Source: Candidatus Chloroploca asiatica (GTDB lineage Bacteria; Chloroflexota; Chloroflexia; Chloroflexales; Chloroflexaceae). From it: a DNA stretch of 64,000 nt. The DNA lies in the NCBI RefSeq assembly GCF_002532075.1, contig NZ_LYXE01000200.1:1-64000 (forward strand). The letters are read 5' to 3'. Below, piece after piece: positions 7,638 through 50,685 of this stretch. The notes below the pieces were generated by a model. It saw nothing but the letters and a program-made list of their open reading frames with translations, was not told the origin of the DNA and ran no database searches. The translations under genes and the position numbers were made by a program. The first letter of the stretch is position 1. Each line of letters opens with the position of its first letter.

Positions 7638-8201
7638 ATGAGCGCAATTACCCTTTTTATTGGTGGCACCCGCAGTGGCAAAAGCCTTTGCGCCGAACGT
7701 TATGCGGCCCAATTCGAACTCCCGGTACTCTACATCGCAACTGCCGAACTTGATGATGATGATATGGAACTGACCATTCGGATCATGGATCACCAGATCC
7801 GTCGTCCTCTCTCTTGGACAACCTTTGAGCAGCCGACGAACCTGGTGATGGCGATGGAACATGCCCCACCTGGCACGGTTGTTTTGCTCGATTGCTTCTC
7901 ACTCCTGGCTCACAACCTGCTGGAAGCTCATCGAGACGCTCCTGCCCAGGCTTCCGCAATCCTTGCCGGGGAACTGGATGCCATTCTTGCCATGACCAGT
8001 GAGCGGAACCTGACCCTGATCATCGTCACCAAAGAGCTTGGGATGGGGTTTGTTGCCGATAGACCCGAAGATCGGGCCTATCACAACCTGCTCGGGCTTG
8101 TCAACCAACGGATCAGCGCCGTTGCCGATGAAGTCTACCTGGTCATTGCCGGGCTTCCCATTGAGTTGAAACACCTCGCACCGGCCTGGCATCGTGCGTA
8201 G
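7638..8201 (+). CDS. cobU: Adenosylcobinamide kinase / cobinamide-phosphate guanylyltransferase
   Basis: 187 residues from ATG at 7638; the open frame extends upstream, but the family begins just before ITLFIGGTRSGKS. That is the P-loop (GGTRSGKS) of CobU/CobP, which phosphorylates adenosylcobinamide and then transfers GMP from GTP, the nucleotide-loop assembly step of B12 synthesis. Also visible are YIATAELDDDDMELTIRIMDHQ with the His of the guanylylation region, WTTFEQP, LLDCFSLLAHN, and the C-terminal IVTKELGMGFVADRP where the family has VSNEVG. No other cobalamin gene is nearby, so it may serve cobinamide salvage. It is followed at 13 nt by an alpha/beta hydrolase gene. Confidence 0.9.
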   Translation: MSAITLFIGGTRSGKSLCAERYAAQFELPVLYIATAELDDDDMELTIRIMDHQIRRPLSWTTFEQPTNLVMAMEHAPPGTVVLLDCFSLLAHNLLEAHRDAPAQASAILAGELDAILAMTSERNLTLIIVTKELGMGFVADRPEDRAYHNLLGLVNQRISAVADEVYLVIAGLPIELKHLAPAWHRA

Positions 8202-8214
8202 CAGGAAGGTGCCT

Positions 8215-9003
8215 ATGCTTCTTCGTCTGCTTGTTCTCTGCCTGTTGCTCTATCTGCTCGTCTGCGTCGTCATCTTTCTCTGGCAAGAGCAGTTGATCTT
8301 CTTTCCTGAGCGCAATCAGCCGGGGACCCGGTATGTCTTTGGCCATCCTGCTGAGGAGGTCTGGTTGAACGCCGAAGGCGCTCAACTCCATGCCCTCTGG
8401 TTTCGTGTCCCAGACCCGCAGGGGGTTATTCTCTATCTCCATGGGAACGCCGGGAGTCTGCGGACATGGGGGGCGGTCGCGCCAGAGCTCGTGGCGTATC
8501 AGTATGATCTGCTCATCATTGATTATCGCGGGTATGGTCAGAGTAGCGGTCAGATCCGCCGTGAAGCGGATGTGTATGCCGATGCTGAAGCTGCCTATGC
8601 CTGGATCCTTGAACGCTATCGCGAGGATCAGGTGGTGCTGTATGGCCGCTCCCTCGGGAGTGCCCCGGCCACGCGCCTAGCGGCTGAGCATCAACCCCGT
8701 ATGCTGATCCTCGAGACCCCTTTTTATAGCCTGGAGGCTCTTGCCCGCCGTCAGTTTCCCTGGTTGCCCCCATTCTTGCTCAAGTATCCGCTGAATGTCT
8801 CGGCCTCGCTTGGTCAGGTGAGTTGCCCGGTGGTCATCATCCACGGCACAGAAGACGAAATCGTACCTTTTGCTGATGGTGAACGTCTGTCCGACAGGAT
8901 AACTGCCCCACTTCGCTTTTATCCTATCGCTGGCGGTCGGCACAATAATCTGGCAACCTTTCCTGCCTATTGGGACGCGATCACTGCGGCACTCGTTCAG
9001 TGA
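8215..9003 (+). CDS. Membrane-anchored alpha/beta hydrolase (BEM46/ABHD13-like)
   Basis: 262 residues from ATG at 8215, which follows AGGAAGG; a GTG at 8194 inside the cobU end is less likely. An N-terminal hydrophobic segment (residues 1-22) anchors the protein. The hydrolase core shows YLHGNAGS as oxyanion loop, the nucleophile elbow YGRSLGSAPA, a late acid in HGTEDEIVPF, and the catalytic His in GGRHNN. This order is typical of the BEM46/ABHD13 group of serine hydrolases of unknown substrate. It follows cobU closely and may share its transcript, with no functional link evident. Confidence 0.85.
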   Translation: MLLRLLVLCLLLYLLVCVVIFLWQEQLIFFPERNQPGTRYVFGHPAEEVWLNAEGAQLHALWFRVPDPQGVILYLHGNAGSLRTWGAVAPELVAYQYDLLIIDYRGYGQSSGQIRREADVYADAEAAYAWILERYREDQVVLYGRSLGSAPATRLAAEHQPRMLILETPFYSLEALARRQFPWLPPFLLKYPLNVSASLGQVSCPVVIIHGTEDEIVPFADGERLSDRITAPLRFYPIAGGRHNNLATFPAYWDAITAALVQ

Positions 9004-46051: not shown

Positions 46052-46063
46052 TAGTCTAATGGT

Positions 46064-46266
46064 ACCGTATTGGGGCACGGCGTCGCCGCGCCCCAACGGC
46101 GGCACGGGGCGGCGGGGCGGGGGCACGGCGGCGGCGTGCCCGTACGGGGGGGCGGCGAGGGCGGCGGGGCCGTGCCCGTACGGCGGGGCGGCGGGGCGGC
46201 GGGGCGGGGGCACGGCAGGGCCGTGCCCGTACGGCGGGGCGGCGAGGGCGGCGGGGCGGGGCAACG
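46064..46266. repeat. GC-rich imperfect repeat tract
   Basis: An almost pure G/C tract with GTGCCCGTACGG at about 46136, 46172 and 46223 (spacings 36 and 51) set in CGGGGCGG runs. The GTGCCCGTAC element is also the junction of each unit in the array at 50251-50593. Confidence 0.7.
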
Positions 46267-46273
46267 CCAGCCA

Positions 46274-46671: not shown

Positions 46672-47133
46672 ATGATAGAACGAACGCATTTATTGGAAGA
46701 GTTTGTGGTTGTGCGTGCGCCGATGGGGCGGGTTGAAGCGGTGATGACTGAGCGCGACCCGATGTTGCGTTGGATGTCTGGGGCCGTGCGCTTTGAGCCG
46801 GTGGATGGCGTCTGGACATTTGACCAGGGGACACGGTGGCAGTTGACGTTGAGTGGCCTTGGACGTTTGTTGCAAGCGTCGTATGTTGTCCATGAGCGTC
46901 GGCCTGGATTGATTCTGTGGGCGTTTGATGGGTTTTGGGAAGGTTTTGATGCGTGGCACTGGATGCCGCAGCAAGACCCTGAGCATACATTGATTCAAAA
47001 TCGCATTGAATATCAGCTGCGTGTTCCGGTGATTGATGTCGTCTGGCCAGCGACGGTGGGGCCACTGATGGGCTGGGATGCGCGGGTACAGATGCAACGG
47101 CTCAAGCAGGTTTGCGAAGAGCAAGGAGGCTAG
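46672..47133 (+). CDS. SRPBCC (START-like) superfamily protein
   Basis: 153 residues from ATG at 46672, with GGAG 5 nt upstream and a promoter 46 nt upstream. The N-terminal strand EEFVVVRAPMGRVEAVMTER, the central WTFDQGTRWQLTLSGLGRLLQ and YVVHERRPGLILWAFDGF, and a C-terminal helix (GWDARVQMQRLKQVCEEQ) fit the SRPBCC/polyketide-cyclase fold, which binds hydrophobic ligands. No catalytic residue set is recognisable. The stop is one base before the ATG of the peroxiredoxin-like gene, so the two are translationally coupled and probably functionally linked. Confidence 0.78.
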   Translation: MIERTHLLEEFVVVRAPMGRVEAVMTERDPMLRWMSGAVRFEPVDGVWTFDQGTRWQLTLSGLGRLLQASYVVHERRPGLILWAFDGFWEGFDAWHWMPQQDPEHTLIQNRIEYQLRVPVIDVVWPATVGPLMGWDARVQMQRLKQVCEEQGG

Positions 47134-47134
47134 G

Positions 47135-47716
47135 ATGGCACGTCCGTTTATTCCGATGACCGGCAAATGGCGCCGGGAATTCATTCAGCCCCGTGGGCCT
47201 AAAGGAGTACCGCAGGTAGGTGAACTGGCACCTGATTTCACCCTGCCGTACGCAAAGATGGTCACAGGACCTGAGGGCGAACTACAGATCGAATATGGGC
47301 GAACAATCACGTTGAGTGCGCTGCGCGGTCGTCCGGTGGTGCTGAATTTGTCACGGATTGTGAGTGATCGTTTCTTCTGACCGCACTGTGCGCCGCAGCT
47401 GGATGCTTTGCGGGAAGCTCATGGTGAATTCGTTGCGCGGGGGGCTGAATTGCTGGTCGTCAGCAGCACCGAGCTTGAGATGACGAGCTTTGTTGCTGAG
47501 ACGCTGAATGCCCCGTATCCGGTGTTGAGTGATGGTGACTGGTCGGTCTTTCATCGGTACGGCATGGGTTCGGCGATGGGGGTGCCGTTGCCGAGTACCT
47601 TTGTGATTGATCCCGAAGGGATTATTCGATGGAGTTGGGTCGCCCCGCTCTCGGTCGTTTTTACGCCGCCGACACCCGAGACACTGCTCTCGATTCTGGA
47701 TCAGTTGTTTGGATAG
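47135..47716 (+). CDS. Peroxiredoxin-like protein with in-frame TGA at the catalytic position: probable selenoprotein
   Basis: Read through one TGA (47378-47380), the frame gives 193 residues. The N-terminal half (VGELAPDFTLPY, RGRPVVLNLSRIVSDRFF) and the C-terminal half (PHCAPQLDALREAHGEFVAR, ELLVVSSTELEM, PYPVLSDGDWSVFHRYG, GVPLPSTFVIDPEGIIRW) are contiguous parts of one AhpC/TSA-type thioredoxin fold. The TGA codes position 82, giving U-P-H-C; relatives have C-P-x-C there, in a context like R-I-(V/F)-T-(D/E)-x-x-Y-C-P-F-C as I recall. Nothing else in the frame is interrupted, and there is a strong RBS (AAGGAGG). A hairpin of SECIS type follows the TGA. The alternative is a point mutation or sequencing error of a TGC/TGT Cys codon. 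Expected role: reduction of peroxides or disulphides. Confidence 0.8.
47393..47413 (+). promoter_or_regulatory. Candidate bacterial SECIS hairpin
   Basis: CCGC-AGC, apical loop TGGAT, GCT, bulged TT, GCGG: seven base pairs with a two-U bulge and a GG in the loop. The apical loop begins 20 nt after the TGA, inside the usual 16-37 nt range for bacterial SECIS elements. Known SelB-binding hairpins also use a loop G and a bulged U, though in E. coli fdhF the bulge is on the 5' arm. Confidence 0.55.
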
Positions 47717-47722
47717 TAGTTG

Positions 47723-47775
47723 TTCTGTAGGCAGCAAAAAAGCCAGCTTAGCTGGCTTTTTTGCTGCCTACAGAA
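47723..47775. repeat. Long palindrome, GCCAGC family (member f); probable bidirectional terminator
   Basis: A perfect 25-bp stem (TTCTGTAGGCAGCAAAAAAG then CCAGC, and complement) around TTA. A6/T6 tracts flank the core. It lies between the convergent peroxiredoxin-like and membrane-protein genes, starting 6 nt after the first stop. Confidence 0.88.
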
Positions 47776-49794: not shown

Positions 49795-50151
49795 CTAGCC
49801 GAGGACAAAGATTTGAGCGACGGCACGATCCTGGAAGAGCAGGACAACGGCTTCACGGGCGGGATCGTAGTCGTTCAGGATCGCTGCGAGATTGGGAGGC
49901 CACTCATCTGAGCCAGCATCAGCGGGATAGTAGGCGATGGGGGCAGTGCCGGTGGCGGTGCGGAGATCAATGCCACGCAGGTCAATCTCGATGACCCCGA
50001 TGCCATCACGCTTGTACGATTGGGCCGCAAACGCGAGTAACTGTTCACTAATGACGGTTACGTAGCTCCCAGCGATCTCGGTGGGATCACTTTCGGGTGT
50101 TTCGAGTAAACGGCGTAGATAGAGCAAAGCCTCTTGTTGCTGTGAATTCAT
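49795..50151 (-). CDS. Small conserved-looking protein of unknown function
   Basis: 118 residues from ATG at 50151, with GGAGAA just upstream. The frame stays open far upstream through a tandem repeat, which is an effect of repeat composition. An N-terminal helix (MNSQQQEALLYLRRLLE), a second helix (IAGSYVTVISEQLLAFAAQS), then strands GIGVIEIDLRGIDL, TAPIAYYPA and AVVLLFQDRAVAQIFVLG. No family was recognised. It converges on the E1-alpha gene, and a short inverted repeat (CTAGGC...GCCTAG, 49780-49799) covers the meeting point. Confidence 0.7.
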   Translation of the reverse strand: MNSQQQEALLYLRRLLETPESDPTEIAGSYVTVISEQLLAFAAQSYKRDGIGVIEIDLRGIDLRTATGTAPIAYYPADAGSDEWPPNLAAILNDYDPAREAVVLLFQDRAVAQIFVLG

Positions 50152-50685
50152 AGGGTTCTCCGGGTGATACACGCGACTGCCCCTATGATACCGCATGTAG
50201 AGAGGAATGGCACAAGAGAGGGGCGAGCAAGGCTCGCCCCTCTCTTGTGCCCGTATGCCGGGCTGATCGGGGCACCCGCGAGGGGTGCCCGTACGCCGGG
50301 CCTGATCGGGGCCCCCGCGAGGGCCCGTACGCCGGGCCTGATCGGGGCCCCCGCGAGGGGTGCCCGTACACCGGGCTGATCGGGGCACCCGCGAGGGGTG
50401 CCCGTACGCCGGGCTGATCGGGGCACCCGCGAGGGGTGCCCGTACACCGGGCTGATCGGGGCACCCGCGAGGGGTGCCCGTACGCCGGGCTGATCGGGGC
50501 ACCCGCGAGGGGTGCCCGTACACCGGCCTTGACACGGGGCACCCGCGAGGGGTGCCCGTACGCCGGGCTGATCGGGGCACCCGCGAGGGGTGCCCCTACT
50601 TCATCATGCCCATGCTCAGAGCAGGTGAAACCCTTTGGGGTGTAGGATCCTTGCGGCCCTACACCCGTTGGCTTGTGCTTGGTGC
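50152..50685. other. 534-base non-coding region dominated by tandem repeats
   Basis: Between the small unknown gene and hsp20. It holds a hairpin AGGGGCGAGC/GCTCGCCCCT (about 50218-50241) and a nine-copy 38-bp tandem array (50251-50593). About 90 bases of unremarkable sequence follow before the hsp20 stop. Confidence 0.75.
50251..50593. repeat. Nine-copy 38-bp tandem repeat array
   Basis: The unit starts CCGTAC(G/A)CCGGGCTGATC and continues GGGGCACCCGCGAGGGGTGC. Unit starts: 50251, 50289, 50325, 50364, 50402, 50440, 50478, 50516, 50556; lengths 38, 36, 39, 38, 38, 38, 38, 40, 38. Each unit contains a GCACCC-GCGAG-GGGTGC hairpin. From unit 4 onward the seventh base alternates A, G, A, G, A, G, so a 76-bp dimer seems to be the amplified unit. 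There are no spacers, so it is not a CRISPR. Confidence 0.9.

Follow-up and report, generated by a model that had tools for sequence, protein, structure and literature searches.

The reading frame at 47135-47716 of the DNA analysed here (a stretch of 64,000 nucleotides from Candidatus Chloroploca asiatica, hereafter the window) is interrupted in its read-through translation by a single TGA at 47378-47380, and the locus raises the question of whether this triplet marks a damaged gene or is read as an amino acid, selenocysteine (Sec) in particular, and what kind of enzyme would result. A gene caller that treats TGA as a stop cuts the gene at codon 82, so that anoxygenic phototrophs of a major group may have a conserved redox enzyme hidden in two fragments. 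The features of the region are the following.

46672-47133, plus strand: SRPBCC (Polyketide_cyc2) protein of 153 aa, probably a translationally coupled upstream gene (PF10604, 30.1 bits against a cut-off of 27.4)
47123-47129, plus strand: AAGGAGG ribosome-binding site (window sequence)
47135-47716, plus strand: predicted selenoprotein gene, 193 aa, AhpC/TSA thioredoxin-fold oxidoreductase with Sec82-Pro-His-Cys85 (read-through, PF00578, AlphaFold2, TGA conserved in 27 genomes)
47378-47380, plus strand: in-frame TGA, predicted to be read as selenocysteine (Sec82); aligns with TGC/Cys in two Chloroflexus copies
47393-47413, plus strand: predicted bacterial SECIS hairpin, CCGCAGC-UGGAU-GC(UU)UGCGG (compensatory G-C/C-G change, synonymous freeze, fold of -7.7 kcal/mol, lost in the Cys copies)
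47723-47775, strand not assigned: long inverted repeat with A/T tracts, likely a bidirectional transcription terminator between convergent genes (window sequence)

Re-reading and translation bore out the single broken frame, the ribosome-binding site before it and the U-P-H-C motif encoded across the TGA, all of which the preliminary description had reported. Its claim that the two halves join as one AhpC/TSA-like domain was likewise upheld, as the joined frame scored 89.3 bits against PF00578 (AhpC-TSA; cut-off 26), whereas the separate pieces scored 17.4 and 62.8 bits. An Rfam scan of the gene region generated chance-level matches only, mostly on the terminator hairpin (47723-47775) and including microRNA families. 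Two very G+C-rich repetitive stretches were also observed in the window, one between genes at 46060-46270 (GGGCACGGCGGCG-type) and one at about 50150-50580, where the repeat gives GVRAPLAGAP-like frames.

TGAs flanked by long open frames are no rarity in this DNA, and 17 of them were counted in the window; together with the ordinary folding energy of the hairpin (see below), this leaves the raw pattern alone weak. As such frames are common by chance in G+C-rich DNA, the count also lends something to the reading that the TGA is a mutation or a misread base in a Cys gene, i.e. a pseudogene or sequencing error. We therefore turned to orthologues. Of the 158 genomes of the class that were searched, 28 have the gene, every one belonging to a single family (Chloroflexaceae), and the TGA stands at the Sec codon in 27 of them, the remaining genome (G061) carrying a Cys codon only. 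In the alignment, the TGA column holds Sec in every orthologue save two Cys copies with TGC. The Sec orthologues showed 61-98% identity where full length, with the TGA in the context RI(V/A)SDR(F/L)F-U-P(H/N)C; the closest named relatives, Candidatus Chloroploca sp. Khr17 and Ca. Chloroploca mongolica, showed 97% identity, and the TGA agrees among the three Chloroploca assemblies. Phage records generated one distant match only. The sequence past the TGA is intact rather than decayed, with pN of 0.01-0.21 against pS of 0.16-0.84, a pattern indicating that the downstream half is evolving as protein under purifying selection.

The hairpin starts 12 nt past the TGA, with its loop from the 20th nt, as first described. 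Published criteria for bacterial SECIS elements call for a loop of 3-9 nt with G in the first two loop positions, a stem of 4-16 bp, a position 16-37 nt after the UGA and an MFE of -7.5 kcal/mol or lower (PMC13188914); the hairpin has a 5-nt loop, UGGAU, starting with UG, a stem of 7 bp, a distance of 19 nt and an MFE of -7.7 kcal/mol, which is only just within the published limit. Its energy was unremarkable against shuffles (z of -1.67 for the stem alone and +0.41 for a 42-nt stretch), and because there is no significant excess stability, thermodynamics was left out of the evidence for a SECIS element. Among 25 orthologues, synonymous sites were mostly frozen from codon -2 to codon +11 around the UGA and hairpin: CCG at +5 and CTG at +7 occurred in 25 of 25, and GCG at +4, GAT at +8, TTG at +10 and CGG at +11 in at least 95% of the sequences with the consensus residue. 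With the end of the hairpin, from codon +12 on, synonymous sites vary again. Of 23 distinct sequences, 11 have G-C and 7 have C-G at stem pair 21-29, the change coupling CAG with GCT and CAC with GGT, and five Chloroflexus-type sequences have a shifted apical register in which CAA goes with GCG. The covariation score was reached by none of 500 shuffles, and sliding the partner registers destroyed the pairing. A double change was seen at one stem pair only; most other pairs are invariant and so silent on covariation. A second possible 7-bp helix, which does away with the UU bulge, was rejected, with 84.5% of cells paired against 96.3% and no double change.

The pattern thus goes beyond chance because the TGA is fixed in 27 genomes, synonymous sites are frozen and a stem pair covaries, and on this comparative evidence we conclude that the hairpin is a SECIS element. 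An identical TGA in so many genomes, frames kept intact past it with pN low relative to pS, and the synonymous freeze at the hairpin leave a pseudogene or sequencing error with a vanishingly small chance of being correct.

The machinery for Sec insertion was then searched for. All four components that the preliminary description had named as a check are present in the genome of the window: selA (558 bits), selB (321.5 bits), selD (379 bits) and a tRNA-Sec (70.4 bits; called tRNA-SeC with anticodon tca, i.e. UCA, by ARAGORN). The selD gene has its own in-frame TGA, followed by a stem-loop of five pairs with a five-base loop; lying at 7661-8590 on the minus strand of its locus (L134, G000:C166:6000-10500) and reading SSAG-U-ASK at the TGA, it is a second selenoprotein in its own right. 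Formate dehydrogenase was checked as a further selenoprotein, and its homologues were without an in-frame TGA. Across the family, selA was found in 27 of 27 genomes with the Sec gene, one of them contributing a contig-edge fragment only, versus 8 of 14 genomes without it (Fisher p about 7e-4). The fragment comes from G030, a 1640-contig draft with the Sec gene, in which no tRNA-Sec scored over the cut-off. One family member without the Sec gene, G006, carries a different AhpC/TSA frame broken by a single TGA (G006:C82:31460-31861), which may account for the selA kept there.

Bacteria are known to read through UGA with other tRNAs as well. This UGA might be decoded as Trp, Cys or Ser rather than Sec, by a tRNA that is reassigned or acts as a suppressor, and the Cys aligned with it in the two non-Sec copies would be compatible with such a reading. 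Of 44 long frames in the window, however, 14 end in UGA, so the genetic code as a whole is standard, and reassignment across the whole genome was ruled out on the same ground. The complete Sec machinery and the SECIS-type constraint also argue against another residue, as does the copy with TGC in a closed genome without a selA match (G061). We regard reading as another residue as highly improbable, if a shade less so than a pseudogene or error, and insertion of Sec at UGA-82 as almost certain from the sequence comparisons.

The two Cys copies, which serve as a natural control for Sec reading, were compared further (the genus and species labels on the relatives' genomes, e.g. G022 and G061 as Chloroflexus, are inferred). 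In G022, which is among the 27, a TGC copy stands in tandem with the Sec gene; in G061, a closed 4.68-Mb Chloroflexus genome, the Cys copy stands alone (G061:C1:1420188-1420757, in L128). They form a single clade within the Chloroflexus group, and the hairpin is absent from both, the equivalent stretches folding at -1.4 and -0.7 kcal/mol. G061 generated no match to selA and none to selB over the cut-off, just general GTPase-type matches. Its tRNA-Sec is apparently intact (4496440-4496532, in L133; positive in both ARAGORN and Rfam) and is an apparent orphan. The 4-kb block before the Cys gene of G061 recurs in front of the tandem pair of G022 and of the Sec gene of G036, and thus the Sec copy was probably lost in G061 following duplication and Sec-to-Cys conversion; the Cys replacement may have let the Sec machinery be lost. 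A natural series runs through the Chloroflexus genomes, from Sec alone, by way of Sec and Cys in tandem, to Cys alone, where tRNA-Sec is kept and neither selA nor selB was found. This unusually clean Cys-for-Sec series makes the steps of selenocysteine loss directly testable in close relatives.

What the protein does was approached through its fold and active site. The AlphaFold2 model had a pLDDT of 89.7 and a pTM of 0.87, and the best Foldseek matches of this predicted model were typical 2-Cys peroxiredoxins (Prx; probability 1.00, TM 0.6-0.7), which places it in the Prx fold. These matches and the AhpC-TSA and Redoxin domain matches would suit a canonical selenocysteine peroxiredoxin, with Sec82 peroxidatic and peroxide reduction as the main job, and the preliminary description had indeed proposed a Sec peroxidase with Sec at the catalytic position of peroxiredoxins. 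The family alignment does not bear out that wording, as the Prx Thr falls on Sec82, the peroxidatic Cys on Cys85 and the catalytic Arg on Pro153. The PxxxT/SxxC motif of peroxiredoxins was found in none of 25 orthologues; the window has SRIVSDRFF-U-PHC, with Ile75 at U-7 and Arg79 at U-3 where the motif would need P and T/S. CPHC of ResA aligns with UPHC and PLPTTF with PLPSTF, and the clade has an insertion of 4-5 residues before the motif relative to homologues. From the positions of Sec82, Cys85 and Pro153, the active site would be thioredoxin/ResA-like, which leads to assignment to the Prx-like UxxC thiol:disulfide oxidoreductases. The predicted fold and the UxxC motif are supported by these comparisons, and we consider thiol/disulfide-type chemistry at UxxC likely, ahead of the classic peroxidase cycle; a canonical Sec peroxiredoxin is unlikely, though it deserves more weight than the other alternatives raised so far.

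In the proposed mechanism, SelB with Sec-tRNA(UCA) would bind to the hairpin that begins 12 nt past UGA-82 and insert Sec at this codon, giving a 193-residue AhpC/TSA-superfamily thioredoxin-fold enzyme with a U-P-H-C active site. The Sec82 selenolate would most likely attack a disulfide or peroxide, Cys85 would resolve the intermediate by forming a selenylsulfide, and a donor of the thioredoxin type would regenerate the enzyme in Prx-like thiol:disulfide oxidoreductase chemistry. Taken as a whole, this explanation, a selenoprotein with thiol:disulfide-type chemistry, is very probably correct, and its selenoprotein part is about as strong a claim as sequence allows. Its substrate, electron donor and location, and any SRPBCC partnership, are a matter of inference.

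A single base separates the stop codon of the SRPBCC gene (47131-47133) from the ATG of the selenoprotein gene, in line with the coupling first described; the neighbour is conserved in part of the family only. In a tblastn survey, used since ORF-based clustering was swamped by antisense frames, 16 of 26 orthologue loci had an SRPBCC gene as the immediate upstream neighbour; none was found within the 3-5 kb examined upstream of six Chloroflexus loci and two others, and the remaining two loci have just 123 and 662 upstream bases. The adjacency in the window and in those 16 loci would fit a system of two genes devoted to one task, with a lipid or pigment bound by the SRPBCC protein as the substrate for repair by the Sec enzyme, but the eight loci without the neighbour speak against it, and such a system is improbable. 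Any functional link between the two proteins is doubtful, although less so than that specific form of it. A broader scenario, in which a Chloroflexaceae-wide selenoenzyme and an SRPBCC lipid/pigment-binding partner would repair peroxidised lipids or bacteriochlorophyll, and duplication and Cys conversion in Chloroflexus would have made the Sec machinery dispensable and left an orphan tRNA-Sec, is in its entirety a long shot.

Several known systems resemble the predicted enzyme in part, and no NCBIfam model reaches its cut-off on it. The Sec peroxiredoxin PrxU (NF040737) and TxxU Prx selenoproteins share its superfamily and use of Sec; the PrxU model scored 30.2 bits against a cut-off of 270, and UxxC replaces TxxU and the Prx Arg is absent. 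SelL-related redox protein (NF040769) has partial similarity over residues 80-147, with 31.4 bits against a cut-off of 120. ResA/TlpA-type oxidoreductases align residue for residue at CPHC and PLPxTF, yet the protein has Sec for the first Cys and no obvious membrane anchor, and scored 41 of 170 bits with NCBIfam ResA. A TGA at the first CxxC position was also observed in more distant Prx-like proteins, mostly of Chloroflexota and likely other selenoproteins (L047, L048, L079, L085, L100, L104, L116, L124 and L125; motifs UPDC, UPHC, UPFC, UGIC, UTFC, UTQC and UPPC).

The closest kind is that of the Prx-like thiol:disulfide oxidoreductase selenoproteins, which the Sargasso Sea survey (PMC1088965) named and a 2026 review (PMC13188914) lists as a high-confidence prediction. 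Like them (PMC1088965, PMC1794560, PMC13188914), the predicted enzyme has an AhpC/TSA domain, UxxC and a bacterial SECIS right after the UGA, known forms having PF00578 with UxxC or UxxU; the protein was assigned by this definition (PF00578 and UxxC, both found here) rather than by sequence comparison with the named representative WP_010940744.1. It differs in that the clade has an N-terminal extension and the insertion (S/T-R-I-V-S-D-R-F-F-U), and within the set of genomes searched it turned up in Chloroflexaceae alone. As no NCBIfam model scored over its cut-off and the literature search brought up no paper dealing with the gene in either Chloroflexus or Chloroploca, the clade itself may be undescribed. 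Taken together, the comparisons indicate that the selenoprotein is real, of a kind already known, and conserved across a photosynthetic family.
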